Positions 12,004-36,484 of a DNA stretch of 64,000 nt are shown in pieces. Each line of letters opens with the position of its first letter. The first letter of the stretch is position 1. The stretch lies in the NCBI GenBank assembly GCA_963575745.1, contig CAUYUJ010022513.1:58493-122492 (forward strand), in the 5' to 3' direction. The notes under the pieces were generated by a model. That model ran no database searches, had not been told where the DNA came from, and saw only the letters and a program-made list of their open reading frames with translations. Made by a program: the position numbers and the translations under genes. Source of the DNA: Prorocentrum cordatum (Eukaryota; Sar; Dinophyceae; Prorocentrales; Prorocentraceae).

Positions 12004-12364
12004 AACGTCTGAATTAGAGGAATAATAAACGGCATCAACACAAACTTTTGGAGTCGCTCCACGCCAAACATTTATGTCTGTGTTTTCCTTACTTACGCAG
12101 GACGAAAGATTTTCCTCTTGAGGTGCAAATGGCCATGAGGAGTTCGCAAGACAACGTCGGCGCCGGAACGGACGGCGACCAGACGAGCTGTTTGCAGCAA
12201 CCGGGGTGAGAGGGATGTATGTATTCATTTCGAATGGGACCCGCGCGCGGGGAGCTGGTGGGTGTGCGCGAGACGACGCAACGCCCATCGTGGAGAGTTA
12301 ATTACCGAACCCCCCATCCCCCGTAGAATCTTAACACGGGCGGTTTGCGGGGTCCGCGGATCCG

Positions 12365-13470: not shown

Positions 13471-13698
13471 AGGTTGGAGGGGGCCGGCGGAGTCCGCGGT
13501 TGGGGGGTCTGCGGCTAGAGCGGCCTGATGCCCGAAGTCCAGGTGGCGCGACTGGGCCACGAGGAGCACCTCGGCGAAACCCGAGCGGGGACTGCGCGTG
13601 GAGGTCCCTGCCCCTCGAGTGGGGCGGAGGCCGGCGGAGGTGAGCCCGCCAAGGCCGAGCTGGGCCCTAGGATCTCGGGCATCGAGGTCAACGCAGAT
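13471..13698. other. Unassigned GC-rich spacer
   Basis: Contains no recognised gene. It resembles GC-rich exon-like sequence (CGAGGAGCACCTCGGCGAAAC) immediately before a family B element, so it could be a fragment of an exon that B interrupts, but no homologous protein was recognised. Confidence 0.3.
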
Positions 13699-13897
13699 CG
13701 GCGGCGAGCGAGGGGGAAGTGAGGCGGAGAAGGCCACCTCAGAAGGCGGCGGGGCTTCTCAGAAGGCCTCGCGCATTCTGAGAGGTGGTCTGTCTCGGCG
13801 GGGAAGGCTTAGAAAACTCCCCGGAAGGCCAGGAAATTTCCGAGCCTTCTGAGAAGGCCCGCCTCTTCTCACTCAACCCTGGGTTCGTCGCCGAGTC
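13699..13897. mobile_element. Family B inverted-repeat element, copy 1
   Basis: Left end GGCGGCGAGCGAGGGGG leads into AAGTGAG and then a set of CTTCTCAGAAGG palindromic half-sites. The right side has CTTCTGAGAAGG and ends TTCTCACT..TCGCCGAG as a decayed inverse of the left end. It is about 200 bp with no coding capacity. The best preserved relative is at 19,087-19,283; a shorter one lies in an intron of the oxygenase gene at 36,174-36,270. Confidence 0.75.
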
Positions 13898-15812: not shown

Positions 15813-15829
15813 TTCGGCACCACCCCATT

Positions 15830-17245
15830 GTGGCACACCCCTCACACGTTTCGTGGCCCCATAGGGAGCTCCACAGAAGGCCCAAGTGGCGGTGTCCACA
15901 TGCGTCCGCGCCATCCATTTCGGCACACCCCTCACGCGTTTCGTGGCCCCACAGGGAGCTCTACCGAAGGCCCCAGTGGCGGTGTCCACATGCGTCCGCG
16001 TCACCCATGTCGGCGCACCCCTAACATGCTTCGTGGCCCCATAGGGAGCTCCACCGAAAGCCTCAATGGCGGTGTCCACATGCGTCCGCGCCACCCATTT
16101 CGGCGCAGCCCTCACACGTTTCGTGGCCCCACAAGGAGCTCTTCCCATTTCGGCGCACCCCTCACACGTTTCTCGTGGCCCCACAGGGAGCTCCACCGAA
16201 GGCCCCAATGGCGGTGTCCACATGCGTCCGCGCCACCCATTTCGGCGCATCCCTCACGCGCTTCGTGGCCCCATAGGGAGCTCCACCGAAAGCCCCAGTG
16301 GCGGTGTCCACATGCGTCCGCGCCACCCATCTCGGCGCACCCCTCACACGTTTTGTGGTCCCATAGGGAGCTTCACCGAAGGCCCCAGCGGCAGTGTCCA
16401 CATGCGTCCGCGCCACCCATTTCGGCGCACCTCTGACACGTTTCGTGGCCCCACAGGGAGCTCCACCGAAGGCCCCAATGGCGGTGTCCACATGCGTCCG
16501 CGCCACCCATTTCGGCACACCTCTCACGCGTTTCTTGGCCCCACAGGGAGCTCTACCGAAGGCCCCAATGGCGGTGTCCACATGCGTCCGCGCCACCCAT
16601 GTCGGCGCACCCCTCACACGTTTCTTGACCCCATAGGGAGCCCCACCGAAGGCCCCAGTGGCGGTGTCCACACGCGTACGCGCCACCCATTTCGGCACAC
16701 CTCTCACGCCTTTCTTGGCCCCAGAGGGAGCTCCACCGAAGGCCCCAGTGGCGGTGTCCACATGCGTCCGCGCCACCCATGTCGGCGCACCCCTCACACG
16801 TTTCTTGACCCCAGAGGGAGCCCCACCGAAGGCCCCAGTGGCGGTGTCCACACGCGTACGCGCCACCCATTTCGGCACACCTCTGACACGTTTCGTGGCC
16901 CCACAGGGAGGTCCAGCGAAGGCCCCAATGGCGGTGTCCACATGCGTCCGCGCCACCCATTTCGGCACACCTCTCACGCCTTTCTTGGCCCCAGAGGGAG
17001 CTCCACCGAAGGCCCCAGTGGCGGTGTCCACATGCGTCCGCGCCACCCATGTCGGCGCACCCCTCACACGTTTCTTGACCCCAGAGGGAGCCCCACCGAA
17101 GGCCCCAGTGGCGGTGTCCACACGCGTACGCGCCACCCATTTCGGCACACCTCTGACACGTTTCGTGGCCCCACAGGGAGGTCCAGCGAAGGCCCCAGTG
17201 GCGGTGTCCACATGCGTCCGCGCCACCCATTTCGGCGCCACCGAT
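15830..17245 (+). repeat. 90-bp satellite array, about 16 units
   Basis: Spacing of GGTGTCCACATGCGTCCGCG is 90 bp across the array, with one short unit near 16,141. Units read TTTCGTGGCCCCACAGGGAG, CTCCACCGAAGGCCCC, GGTGTCCACATGCGTCCGCG and CCACCCATTTCGGC. Since 90 is a multiple of three, a 30-residue periodic frame stays open on both strands. From about 16,641 a 270-bp higher-order unit (three monomers, marked by CACGCGTACG and AGGTCCAGCGAAGG) is repeated almost exactly. Mutations do not favour any one frame, so translation is doubtful. Confidence 0.9.
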
Positions 17246-17305
17246 GACAATATTTACAACTGCGGTACTCTCAACTGCATATGGTTGGGCCCTTCGCCAA
17301 GCTAC

Positions 17306-18868
17306 TTTAAATGCCGTTGTTGTTTTCCCAACCATCCGGTGGTGTTGGGTCCTCGTTTTGAAGAGACGGTCCCCGCGTTCCTCTCCTCTCCTCCTCCTCC
17401 CCCTCCTCCCTCCTCCCCCCCTCCCTGCGTTCCACCCACCTATTACAACGCTTCGTGGCCCCATAAGGAGCCCCACCGAAGGATACTACCGTCCGCATGC
17501 GTCCCGCGCACCCAGCACAGCGTTGCGTGGCCCCCTCCCCCCTCCCCCCTGCGTTTCGCCAACCCACTACAACGCTTCGTCGCCCTATGAGGAGTCCCAC
17601 CGAAGGTCCCAGTGTTACTGTCTGCATGCGCCCCGCGCACCCAGCACAGCGTTTTGTGGCCCCATTGGGAGCCCCACCGAAGGTCCCAGTGCTACCGTCC
17701 GCATGCGTCCCGCACAACCAGTACAGCGTTTCGTGGCCACGTAGGGAGCCCCACCGAAGGTCACAGTTCTACTGTCCGCATGCGTCTCGCACACCCAGTA
17801 CAGCGTTTCGTGGACCCCTTCTCCCTCCTCCCTGCATTTCACCCACCCAGTCTAGCGCTTCGTGGCCCCCTGGGGAGCCCCACCGAAGGTCCCAGTGCTA
17901 CCGTCCGCATGCGTCCCGCACACCCAGTACACCGTTTCGTGGCCCCATAGGAAGCTCCACCGAAGGTCCCAGTGCTACCGTCCGCATGCGTCCCGCACTT
18001 CCAGTACATCGCTTCGTGGCCCCATAGGGAGCTCCACCGACGGCCCCAGTGGGACCGTCCGCATGCGTCCTACACACCCCTTGGCATTGTTTCACCTACC
18101 CAGTACAAGTGTTCCGTGGCCCCATAGGGAGCTCCACCGAAGCCCTCAATGGGACCGTCCGCATGCGTCCCGGAAGCCCAATGAATGTGGTACTTTCACC
18201 CACCCAGTACAAGTGATCCGTGGCCCCATAGGGAGCTCCACCAAAAGCCTCAGAGGGACCGTCCGCATGCATACCGGAAACACAATTTGGCATTCTCACC
18301 CACCCAATGCAGCGTTTCGTAACCCCATAGGGAGCTCCACCGAAGCCCCCAATGGGACCGTCCGCATGCGTCCCGGAAACCCGATTTGGTATTTTCACCC
18401 ACCCAGTACAGCGCTTCGTGGCCCCATAGGGAGCTCCACCGAAGCCCCCAGTGGGACTGTCCGCATGCGTCCTGGACACCCCTTGGTATTTTCACCCACC
18501 CAGTACAACGCTTCGTGGCCCCATAGGGAGCTCCACCGAAGCCCCCAGTGGGACCGTCCGCATGCGTCCTACACACCCCTTGGAATTGTTTCACCTACCT
18601 AGTACAAGTGTTCCGTGGCCCCATAGGGAGCTCCACCGAAGCCCCCACTTGGACCGCCCGCATGCGTCCCGCACACCCAATTTGGCGTTTTCGCCCACCC
18701 AGTGCAGCATTTCGTGGCCCCATAGGGAGCTCCACCGACGGCCCCAGTGCTACCGCCCACATGCGTTCCCCCCACCAAGTACAGCGCCCCATAGGGAGCT
18801 TCACCGAAGAAGATATTCACAATTGCGGCACCTACAACTGCATATGGCTTGGTCCTTCGCCGAGATGA
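17306..18868 (+). repeat. Satellite module 2 with 77/99/129-bp units
   Basis: Begins with the same leader as module 1 (TTCCCAACCATCC, GTTGGGTCCTCGTTT) and ends with the same tail (ATTCACAATTGCGGCACC, CAACTGCATATGGCTTGG). Monomers share TTCGTGGCCCCATAGGGAGC, CCACCGAAG and GTCCGCATGCGTCC with module 1 but differ in length. Spacings of GTCCGCATGC are 77, 129 and, in the later half, 97-104 bp. The ATC tract of module 1 is missing. The two arrays are diverged sisters. Confidence 0.85.
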
Positions 18869-19086
18869 TTATTCTTCGGTTCTCCGAGACCCGAGGCGAC
18901 ACACCGCCCGCAACCTCGTGCCGCTCCCTGCCCCTCCGCAGGCTGGGTCCCTCGCCCAGGGCGGCGGCCCGCAGCCCGATCCGACCAGAGGCCGCGGGCC
19001 GCGCCGCGCCGGAGACTGTGGCCGCGCGCTCGCCAGGCCAGGCCGGAGACTGGCCTCGCGTGCTCGCCAGGCCAGGCCAGAGGATT
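18869..19086. other. GC-rich unassigned spacer
   Basis: Very GC-rich, without recognised gene. CAGGCCAGGCCGGAGACTGG and nearby GCTCGCCAGGCCAGGCC form a short imperfect repeat just before the family B element. Confidence 0.35.
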
Positions 19087-19283
19087 GGCGGCGAGCGAGG
19101 GGGGGGGGAGTGAGAAGGACAAGGGCTTCTCAGAAGGCGGCGGGACTTCTCAGAAGCCCTCGCGCCTTCTGAGAAGCTTTCTGCGTCGTCGGGGAAGGCT
19201 TAGAAAACTTCTCAAAGGCCCAGGGACTTCCGAACCTTCTGAAAAGGCCTTCTCCTTCTCACTTCCCCCCCTCGCTCGCCGCC
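19087..19283. mobile_element. Family B inverted-repeat element, copy 2 (best preserved)
   Basis: The 197-bp element is bounded by GGCGGCGAGCGAGGGGG and its inverse CCCCCTCGCTCGCCGCC. Inside these are AGTGAGAAGGA and its inverse TCCTTCTCACT, then nested CTTCTCAGAAGG palindromes. No open frame of interest. The terminal pyrimidine run plus AG|G in one orientation would make a ready-made splice acceptor, as seen in the oxygenase gene copy. Confidence 0.85.
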
Positions 19284-19312
19284 GAAAAGAGAACGGCATG
19301 AACATAAGCTTG

Positions 19313-32991: not shown

Positions 32992-33289
32992 CAAGCATGA
33001 AGTACACGCGCGCATGATGGCAAATCGGTCGTGCGGTCAGTGGGCGTGCGCACCCGAGCAGGCCTTGACACGCCCATCTGTGCACGCGCACGCCCCCACG
33101 CCCACGCGCAACTTTTGCGCTCTGCCAGAGAACCGGGAGGAGAAGGCAGCAAGGAGCAAGGAACGTGTTGCTGCAGTTTGAGACACGCTGTGCTTCAGAT
33201 CCTCAGGCTTCCCGTGCGAGCAGCTGGGCAACCTTAACCTTGCACGCACAGGCGTCCCTGCACTCGTGCCTGGTGACTCGCACCGAGCC

Positions 33290-34330
33290 GCGCTCAGCAT
33301 GTCCCCAGGCTCTCTCCGCACGTCCAGCGCCGCACGCCGCTGACAGCATTCCCACGGTCGGCAGTACGCTTGGCAGCGTCGACTTGAAGACAGCAGTGAA
33401 GGTCTCGTAGGCCCCAAGCTGCTCCCAACATGGCTACATCCTCTCGCCGCACGTCCAGCGCCGCCCGCCCACTCAGAGCTGTATCGTATCCTCGGCGGCG
33501 TGCTGGGCAGCGTACTGTGGAAGCTCGGTAAACCCGATGCAGCGCGCAGCACGGCCCCAGGCAGGCTGTCTCCGCACGTACTATATCGTACCTTCGGCGG
33601 CAGTGCCGCGCACCGTCGACTGGAACGTCAACGTGGAAGCCCAGTAAGCACAACGCAGCGCTCAGCACGGCCCCAGGCAGGCTCTCTTCGCACGTCGAGT
33701 GCCGCCCGCCCACTCAGAACTATTTCCCACCTTTGGCGAAGAGTTGGGCAGCGTCGACTCGAACACCACTGTGGAAGCCAGGTAAGCCAAACGTAGCACT
33801 TGGTATGATCCCAGGCAGGCTCTCTCTGCAAGTCCAGCGCCGCCCGCCAACTCAGAACTAGATCGTACCTTCGGCGGCGTGCTGGGCAGCGTCGACTCGA
33901 GGACTGCCTTGAAAGCCCATTGAACCCGACGCCGCGCTCAACAGGGCCCAAGGTAGGCGCTCTCCGCACGTCCAGCGCCGCCGCCCACTCAAGCTATGTC
34001 GTACCTTCGGCGGCGTGCTTGGCAACGTCGACTCGAAGGCTACAGTGGAAGCCCAGTGAACCCGACGCCGCACCCAACACGGCCCCAGGCAGACTCTCTC
34101 CGCACGTCCAGCGCCGCCCGCCCACTCAGAGCTGGACCCCACCTTCCGCGGCATGCTGGGCAGCGTCGACTCGAAGGCCACCGTGAACACGTCCCAACGC
34201 CAGGCTCAGCAGGGCCCCATGCAAACTCCCTCCGCACGTCCAGCGCCGCCCGCCCGCTCAGAGCTACCGCACCCTTGGCGGCATGCTGGGCATCGTGGAC
34301 TTGAAGACCACCGTGAAAGCCTCGTAGGCA
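33290..34330 (-). repeat. Tandem array derived from the 3' end of the oxygenase gene
   Basis: About eight units of 110-140 bp. On the plus strand each carries TCCGCACGTCCAGCGCCGCC, CCGCCCACTCAGAGCT, CCTTCGGCGGCGTGCTGGGC and AGCGTCGACTCGAAG. The last unit (34,230-34,330) is the real end of the gene: its minus strand encodes the final YEAFTVVFKSTMPSMPPRV and the stop at 34,264. The others encode decayed versions such as AFESTLPSTPPKVR, so the terminal coding segment and its 3' flank were amplified downstream of the gene. Confidence 0.82.
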
Positions 34331-36183
34331 TCAAGAAGCCCGTCGCCGTCCATGTCGGCAACGCGCAACAGAGCTGCGGCAACCTCCCGGCCCCGCCCGG
34401 GCGCCGCGCTGGGCCGCTGGAGGTTGGCCCTCCGTGCAAACTCCTCCGCCTCCGCGATGCTGAGCCTCCCGTCGCCGTCGCTGTCGGCGGCCGTGAAGTG
34501 CCCCTTAACCGTGACGAACATGTTGCACTCTGCCTCTGGCTTAATCCAGAGGCTCCAGCTCCAGCGATTTCCGCGGCTCACCGCGACACCGTGCAGCAGG
34601 TCGGCCTGGTGGACCACGGCGTCTCCCGTTCGCAGCGGCAGGTAGCTCTGGGCGGCGCTGTAGTTGCTCATGAGGAAGAGGCCGCCCTCGTAGTCCTCGG
34701 AATTCAGCGTGAACACCACCGACACGGAGGCCTGCATGTCCTGGTGAGCGTGGAGCCCACGCCTCTCGCCCTCCAGGTAGCGGCGCACGAGCGAGAAGCA
34801 GACCTCGAGGAGCAACAACAAAAACATAAACAACAACTCGTGGAGGTCCGCGCGGGTTTCTCGGATCTGCTGGACACCCCTCCCTGGCGCGCGGAGCGCG
34901 TCAGACGGGCCCAGCGCCATTCCCAGAGATCCGCGCGGGGGTCAGGAGAGGTATGGCTACGGCTGGACCTAGGACAGAAGAACGCCCTCCAAAAACATGA
35001 GGCCCTCCACCCGCCAGACTGGAGAACATTCGAGGGTGCTTTCCCCCAGGATGCACAAGAACATTCAACAAGCACGAAGATCATCGGGGTACCCTCCCCG
35101 AACTGAACTCAATCTTGTACCTCGGTCCGACCGTACGCAATTATTTCTTCGAAGACCACACACGTGTCGCACGCGTACCGCGCGCGCACGAACAACATGG
35201 CCCTGTCCATCGCGGGGCGCATGACATCATCCAGCGGCCGGTGCAGCAGCCTGGCTGCCTTGTAGACGTAGAACTCGTGGGTCGCGGCGCCGTCAATCGA
35301 GTCGGGCTTCGCCTCTAGAAGGGCAACAAAATACACAAACAGAAACTTTCGGAACTCGCAAGATTCGTGACAACGCCCGTGACCAGCCCCGCCCTCCCCC
35401 CTCCCCCGCCCTCGCGCCGGCGCCGTGTAGGAAATACCAATCTCCTGAGCATTCCCGGACGGCGCCGGCGCGAATTGCGACGTGACCGGCCGCCCGCTAC
35501 CGCCAGGGGATAGAAAACATTGTCTCTTTCCTGGATCGGCGCAGGAGCCCCTCCCTGGCGCGCGGAGCGCGCCAGGGGCGGCGCCGGAGACGCCTCCAGG
35601 CCAGGGGGGGCCCAGCCCAGCGGCGATCGAAGGAATCCGCGGGGAACTCCGAGTTACGCTCGCTCGTGTGTGGAGGGCTATCTGAATCAAGACGTTGGCG
35701 GACCAACGGCAAACAGCGGCACATGACTAGCGGCAAAAAGCGGCCCGCGCCCCGCGCCAGCCGTCCACCAATCACCCCCGGATCGCCGCCAATGGGCGCC
35801 AATCGTCCAAACCTGCTTTCAGTGAGCTGCAAGGCTTCCACAAAAACCAACCTCGAAGGATTCCACAAGCTTCAAGACTTCCACAACACTTCCACAAAAC
35901 CAGAAAAAACTGCCCATCCGACAAGAAGGATTCCTATGCCGTGTTTTGTTCCTCCAGCCTCGAACGCGTCGAGCGGCGGCATCCGCGACAGGACGAGGCG
36001 AGCCTCCTCACGCGACAGGAGCCCCCGCAGCAGGGCCCACTCCGCCCCGCCCTCCGCGCCGACGAACTGGTAGCCTCTCCAGGCGCCGAGTCGGACCAGC
36101 TCGCGGCTTCGAGACCACGCAGGGATGTCCGGGGGCGCCGAGGAGGGGGGGGGGCAGGAGGGCAGGTTAGCTCGGCGGCGAGC
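34264..36183 (-). CDS. Fe(II)/2-oxoglutarate oxygenase with two EF-hands, three exons seen, 5' end incomplete
   Basis: Likely a prolyl-4-hydroxylase-type dioxygenase: Fe(II), 2-oxoglutarate and O2 used to hydroxylate a protein or small substrate, with calcium-binding EF-hands. Exons on the minus strand: A 36,183-35,959 (SRELVRLGAWRGYQF, LLRGLLSREEARLVLSRMPP, ending DAFE); B 35,312-35,157 (AKPDSIDGAATHEFYVYKAA to CDTCV); C 34,803-34,264. Exon C has RRYLEGERRGLHAHQDMQAS with the HxD iron ligands, LLHGVAVSRGNRWSW with the distal His and the 2-oxoglutarate Arg, then EF loops DSDGDGRLSIAE and DMDGDGLLDAYE. Both internal introns are phase 0. One is GC-AG (35,958-35,313) and the other GT-AG (35,156-34,804). 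Start codon and signal sequence were not found; exon A's acceptor at 36,184 is plausible only. Confidence 0.85.
34841..34942. mobile_element. Family A element inside oxygenase intron B-C
   Basis: Ends TGGAGGTCCGCGCGGGTTTC and AGAGATCCGCGCGGGGGTCA are inverse to each other. The centre CCTGGCGCGCGGAGCGCG is shared with 24,204 and 35,515. The element makes up about a third of the 353-bp intron and lies next to its acceptor; between them is a pyrimidine-rich minus-strand run ending CTCCTCGAG|GTC. The junctions share GGTCT on both sides, as expected from a target duplication. Confidence 0.85.
35515..35655. mobile_element. Family A element inside oxygenase intron A-B
   Basis: CTGGATCGGCGCAGGAGCCC and CCCTGGCGCGCGGAGCGCGC match the left and centre of 24,204. 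The right end is CGATCGAAGGAATCCGCGG. The outer left end has decayed. The surrounding 646-bp intron ends with a pyrimidine-rich minus-strand run CCCTTCTAG before AG|GCG. Exon A end and exon B start share GAGGC. Confidence 0.78.
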
Positions 36184-36270
36184 CTGGGGGAGAAGCGAGA
36201 AGGGGCGGGCCTTCTCGGAAGGCTTAGAAGTCCCCCGGCCTTCCGAGAAACTTCCTGAGCCTCCCACGCA
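36174..36270. mobile_element. Family B element 5' of oxygenase exon A
   Basis: GGCGGCGAGCCTGGGGGAGA, AGCGAGAAGGGGCGGGCCTT and CTTCTCGGAAGGCTTAGAAG match family B (19,087). Read on the minus strand the element end gives TTCTCGCTTCTCCCCCAG|GCT, a polypyrimidine run and AG|G acceptor directly before the exon A frame. So the element probably forms the 3' part of a third intron. Confidence 0.7.
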
Positions 36271-36484
36271 GACGCAGAACACCATTCCAGGCGTCGTGGG
36301 GTCCTCGAATGGACCGAAAAAGTGGGGCCCAACCCTGGGACATGCGATATGTGGGAGTCCATCCTCGATAGGGGTGTGTCCGAATAGCCCCCTTGGGGTG
36401 TATCCCAAGGTTACCCTCCTTTCTGAACGGCCTCGTTTTCCGTCGAAGAATCGGAGGATAGGGGGGGAGACAATCGCCTGCGAA

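Follow-up and report, generated by a model that had tools for sequence, protein, structure and literature searches.

A family of inverted-repeat elements as the probable origin of two introns in a gene of the dinoflagellate Prorocentrum cordatum

Introners are already known from dinoflagellates (PMC7789003, PMC9860276, PMC10666404, PMC11453091, PMC10522408, PMC11782384), and in Polarella and other members of the group many introns have been attributed to recent introner insertion (Roy et al. 2023, cited through PMC11453091). The introners of Symbiodinium microadriaticum (Gozashti et al. 2022, PMC9860276) are described as having inverted repeats, a short target duplication, an acceptor borne by the element and a donor derived from the duplication; those of Amoebophrya (Farhat et al. 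2021, PMC7789003) as having direct and inverted repeats at intron ends; and those of P. cordatum itself (Dougan et al. 2023, PMC10666404) as having both kinds of repeat near the intron ends, the latter being counted by a pattern that combines an inverted repeat of 8–20 nt with a direct repeat of 3–5 nt within 30 bases. The element family described here, family A, resembles all three. It differs from the S. microadriaticum introners in that 5 bp rather than 4 bp are duplicated and that the duplication can supply the G of the AG acceptor, and from those of Amoebophrya, which are reported to have largely non-canonical splice sites and to lack an inverted repeat specific to the family. Moreover, it is defined by its sequence, and its diverged intron copies would miss the pattern used for P. 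cordatum. In the literature searched, the scope of which excluded supplements and most subscription journals, no sequence-defined introner family of P. cordatum was found. Family A is a new family of a known kind of event, visible here in unusual detail.

The gene and its exons

The window, i.e. the whole stretch of 64,000 nucleotides that was analysed, originates from P. cordatum, a red-tide alga: its exons match GenBank protein P0012 (“unnamed protein product [Prorocentrum cordatum]”, 685 aa, retrieved with the P. glacialis homologue P0001 as query) at 100% on the minus strand, and a search of the organism's own genome (4.128-Gb assembly, 21,875 contigs) places it at C21664:58493-122492. The features of the gene are as follows.

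35959..36106, minus strand: exon A (P0012 model, 100% match; begun at 36184 in the initial annotation)
35313..35958, minus strand: intron A-B, 646 nt, GC-AG reading (published protein and gapless homologues)
35157..35312, minus strand: exon B (100% match to P0012)
34804..35156, minus strand: intron B-C, 353 nt, GT-AG reading (published protein and gapless homologues)
34264..34803, minus strand: exon C including the stop codon (100% match to P0012)

Junctions A|B and B|C are both in phase 0, consistent with the published model, and P. glacialis P0001 as well as the Logan proteins P0002 and P0003 align across both without gaps, which together with P0012 bears out the phase 0 joining of the three exons proposed in the initial annotation. 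Protein P0013 is gapless over A|B and diverges just before B|C, where it offers no support. The published gene model is known from its protein, from which we infer splicing, and the direct repeats described below make each cut ambiguous within 5 nt. Donors in P. cordatum are reported to be GC in 51.4%, GT in 24.7% and GA in 23.8% of cases (PMC10666404).

“Fe2OG dioxygenase” is the database name attached to P0001 and P0012; a Pfam scan of the spliced protein returned only EF-hand and FG-GAP, both below threshold. Pfam scans of 20 ORFs of the window gave a single weak match, to ARL6IP6, and the comparison of viral contigs with alignment A1 gave 54 pattern matches and 0 relatives. The N-terminal exons of P0012 differ from those of its homologues. 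When upstream exons were sought in the window with the N-terminus of the Polarella homologue, only weak matches were obtained, at 41087-40902 (E 0.02) and 56458-56282 (8e-4) on the minus strand, for a region missing from the published P. cordatum model. Degenerate tandem repeats resembling AYEAFTVVFKSTMPSM (window 33287-34321) span the last dioxygenase codons and continue past the stop codon, and big tandem-repeat blocks are found at 15814-18864.

Family A and its copies in the genome

A family A copy in each intron had been noted in the initial annotation, and its core is indeed found in both (35652-35525 and 34944-34842). Another family, C, which goes unmentioned there, occupies half of intron B-C (TACGGTCGGACC...CCAGCCGTA); this intron measures 177 nt once family C is subtracted.

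35525..35652, minus strand: family A core in intron A-B (nhmmer and BLAST), perhaps itself a second, nested copy
34842..34944, minus strand: family A core in intron B-C (nhmmer)
34958..35135, minus strand: family C, 178 nt, with TA at either end, inserted into the 5′ portion of intron B-C (about 30 aligned genome copies with conserved ends)

At three other places (L002, L019 and L027) inner arms like those of family A adjoin family C as they do in intron B-C, either by nesting or as a composite element.

The 177-nt intron B-C was used to search the genome, which gave 1937 first-look candidates, 40 of which were scored, with 55 matches. The best 39 scored places besides the window share 78-89% identity with the B-C copy, mainly over the core, and 20 of these 39 were retrieved (the first twelve, together with eight chosen manually). 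Outer arms lie beyond the inner palindromes at both ends of 17 of the 20 copies and at one end of the other three (score of at least 10). The full element, measured from arm to arm in the 17 two-armed copies, spans 168-204 nt, with 199 nt in seven of them, and its consensus arm is TAGGGGAACAAAAAATGACATAAACATAAAAACTCGGAGG; TAGGGGAAC is likewise family A arm sequence. The five letters flanking the element are identical on both sides in seven of the 17 (L053, L055, L059, L066, L067, where the flank is a run of G, L068 and L069), versus 7 of 272 mispaired flanks (Fisher p 1.7e-6, the mispairs not being independent). At a fixed register, 5-bp matches are found in 3/17 own pairs versus 1/272 mispairs, and an exact 5-bp duplication is absent from the box examined in 10/17 copies. 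Outside the 17, copy L051 has ATCAA on both sides, and L033 is a family A copy that lies within a family B element, its flanks matching as GAAGG/AAGGT. A duplication of 4 bp had been considered and was replaced by 5 bp after the arm-defined genome copies were compared. Loose 4-mer matches in the box arise by chance in 51% of trials and are uninformative.

The abundance of the families was gauged from 20 stretches of 10 kb (17,098 N; about 183 kb unmasked) on contigs chosen for holding family C elsewhere, and hence not strictly random. Family A gave 9 core matches in 6 stretches, family B 5 in 4 and family C 0; sequence outside the core is also common to the family A copies of this sample. Extrapolated genome-wide, the 9 family A matches, some of them fragments, correspond to about 203,000 (Poisson 95% range 93,000-386,000). 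Words following the terminal 14-mer were TAG in 1229 cases (23 in the backward control), TAC in 645 (10) and TATC in 237 (0); the excess of TAG over TAC fits splicing or target preference equally and supports no conclusion. In the window, a very short element at 12015-12100 (86 nt between arm starts) has both family A arms, no match to the core and a splice-like end, TTACGCAG|G.

Element ends, splice sites and direct repeats

Two profiles of the arm were used. The first, of 34 nt, was built from 12 copies, with 18/24 ends chosen by eye and 4 poorly aligned ones dropped, leaving 14 arms outside the gene; the second, of 40 nt, was built from other genome copies only, and its null of 12800 segments includes true family A arms. 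Window arms outside the training set flank family A cores at 19279 and 24811. Within the gene, the arms and the short direct repeats are located as follows.

35923..35956, minus strand: intron A-B, 5′ end: outer arm of family A (first profile 16.1, reached by 3/7852 null segments; second 6.5, 41/12800)
35316..35349, plus strand: intron A-B, 3′ end: outer arm of family A, inverted (first profile 25.3, 1/7852; second 28.9, 7/12800)
34807..34840, plus strand: intron B-C, 3′ end: outer arm of family A, inverted (first profile 19.4, 1/7852; second, 40 nt, 37.6, 3/12800)
35957..35961, minus strand: GAGGC, copy 1 of the 5-bp duplication at intron A-B (sequence; family makes 5-bp duplications)
35311..35315, minus strand: GAGGC, copy 2 at intron A-B (sequence)
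35153..35157, minus strand: GGTCT, copy 1 of the 5-bp duplication at intron B-C (sequence)
34800..34804, minus strand: GGTCT, copy 2 at intron B-C (sequence)

Of the four intron ends, three carry an arm, 2-3 nt inwards from the splice site in the readings given above, and with the first profile none of the ten ends of the other five published introns scores above 4.9. At the remaining end, the 5′ end of intron B-C with family C taken out, scores of 4.8 (225/7852, first profile) and -7.8 (473/12800, second) are not significant alone, so that the case for intron B-C rests on its 3′ end, its core and the duplication. An early reading of the introns as mere hosts of nested repeats was abandoned on the grounds that the outer arms reach the intron ends.

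The association extends to a second gene. P0023 (“unnamed protein product, partial [Prorocentrum cordatum]”) was reached through an ORF next to the family A copy at L046:6314. Its exon EGEKPIF... begins at C20077:106277 and the family A arm at 106281, adjoining the published 3′ splice site. The register is that of A-B and B-C (offset 3), and the arm scores 6.8 with the second profile (39/12800) and 19.3 with the first when the L046 arms are left out. This is the only end of that intron located, residues 382-412 being unmapped in the 24 kb read, and two other mapped P0023 introns have no family A arms. In all, family A ends were located at two introns of one gene and at one 3′ end in another.

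As regards the pattern of Dougan et al. 2023, GAGGC and GGTCT fall within its direct-repeat range of 3–5 nt. The longest exact inverted match is 7 nt in intron A-B, and there is none of at least 6 nt in B-C, in a box covering 10 bases of exon and 30 of intron, which differs from the program of that study; in the same box, an inverted match of 8 nt is found among the seven published introns in intron 5 only.

The direct repeats read GAGGC[TGGAGGAAC...GCCCTTCTA]GAGGC at A-B and GGTCT[TCGAAGAAA...CTCCTCGA]GGTCT at B-C, the same repeats as had first been pointed out on both sides of each junction. Repeats of 4 nt are also found at published introns 1, 2 and 4 of the gene, all without family A arms. 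When donors and acceptors are mispaired, the mean repeat is 3.24 nt versus 25/7 for own pairs, and 1302/5040 permutations reach the observed sum; repeats of at least 5 nt arise by chance in 16% of random AG|GY x AG|G pairs and 3.9% of G|GY x AG|G pairs. The direct repeats were accordingly dropped as stand-alone proof, mispaired and random splice-site pairs giving similar lengths. GAGGC and GGTCT are informative because family A duplicates 5 bp at that very register.

Paralogous genes were compared at the two intron positions. A protein search of the own genome gave 13 matches, corresponding to the three exons of the gene itself and ten other places, eight of which were retrieved (left out were C15445, whose figures equal those of C13544, and C13672, which falls short of the junctions). 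The B|C position is uninterrupted by an intron in 8/8 places (the alignments of L075 and L078 being gapped near it), and A|B in the 3/3 that reach it (L071, L074, L075). These paralogues are 29-45% identical to the gene, and on that account intron gain in this gene is favoured, with loss in the paralogues still conceivable. Metagenome and Logan homologues, some of which may be transcripts, are also uninterrupted at the junctions.

Origin of the two introns

Taken together, we consider it highly probable that both introns began as family A insertions into coding sequence, and an introner origin is well supported for the family A introns. In the series of events that we infer, which comprises transposition, the order of the steps, the exact splice positions within the repeats and splicing itself, family A would be a DNA element with inverted repeats and no genes of its own, moved by a transposase presumably supplied from elsewhere, each insertion having duplicated 5 bp (GAGGC, GGTCT). 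Read outwards, the terminal repeat of the element is pyrimidine-rich, and its consensus ends in TA (...TTTTTTGTTCCCCTA); a duplication beginning with G could then complete an AG acceptor, and the first copy could provide the donor, GC in A-B and GT in B-C. In intron B-C the first G of the duplication would complete CTCGAG and the first copy would give G|GT, and in A-B the first copy would give GAG|GC, with the acceptor within TAGAG. Splicing would take out the element and one copy of the duplication, leaving the coding sequence unchanged, and later insertions would have lengthened the introns, by family C in B-C and by other sequence in A-B.

It could be argued that these are ordinary older introns into which the abundant families A and C inserted by chance, the arm-like ends being a pyrimidine-rich splice signal. 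The frequency of family A in the genome sample, the position of the cores within the introns and the frequent direct repeats at the introns of this gene would all agree with this. However, the arm is also found at the 5′ end of intron A-B, where no pyrimidine tract constrains the sequence, the other published intron ends lack it, and copies elsewhere share both the arm register and the duplication length, which makes chance insertion an unlikely explanation. Very improbable, in our view, is that both introns are ancient, were lost from the paralogues (e.g. by cDNA reinsertion) and later had their contents replaced by family A up to the ends: the paralogues are distant enough to allow it, and the uninterrupted relatives may derive from transcripts, but this requires, on two occasions, a replacement that extends as far as the splice sites and comes with a duplication of the length typical of the family.

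The initial annotation went further, in proposing that families A and B had each recently made introns in this gene, with the end of family B supplying the acceptor of exon A.

36172..36287, minus strand: family B half copy, not supported as an intron-making end (homology passes the proposed AG|G at 36185/36184)

Family B does lie directly 5′ of the exon A start proposed there, this copy reads CCCCCAG|G, and one copy of the genome sample, L039, also has CAGG at this point (CCCCCCCAGG). Nevertheless, family B homology extends about 12 nt beyond the AG, into the supposed exon A, and AG is found at that point in 0/5 other window copies reaching it and in 1/5 sample copies, the other four lacking it. 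Moreover, the published exon A starts at 36106, 78 nt downstream of the start proposed earlier, with its acceptor at 36107 after CTCGAAG. The latter is an unconvincing acceptor, and a W common to P0001 at 36117 suggests that exon A may start somewhat upstream of 36106. Nor is recent gain supported, in view of the identity of 78-89% between the intron B-C copy and the other best-scored places, mostly over the core, and of the further inserted or unexplained sequence in both introns. There is no support for family B as an intron maker, and with it the involvement of two unrelated families falls; the two-family proposal as a whole is scarcely credible, and the introner origin that it put forward stands for family A, by its arms at three of four ends and its 5-bp duplication. 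Other family B copies are located in the window at 13698-13894, 19085-19285 and 25892-25828, the first two being foldbacks of about 200 nt with inverted arms starting TYGGCGGCGAGCGAGGGGG.

To return to the origin from family A that we favour, no GY-AG intron would result from duplications like GTGTT (L068) or GTTGA (L069), and these, together with copy L033 inside a family B element, suggest that family A is a general element which makes introns only at suitable targets. The present data provide a sequence-defined introner family for a dinoflagellate whose introners were counted by pattern in PMC10666404, and diverged, nested introners such as those described here are expected to be missed by a pattern search. 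For the arms, the length, the 5-bp duplication and the splice-site rule alike, the 4-Gb genome and its RNA data offer a test. It is tempting to speculate, although we hold this to be somewhat doubtful, that family A is an intron maker on both strands, its arm being a pyrimidine tract followed by TA, with just a G missing, and that an intron may therefore arise in either orientation where the target starts with G and offers a donor. With some 1e5 copies or more, such insertions could account for a sizeable share of the introns of P. cordatum, and nested insertions for part of their length.
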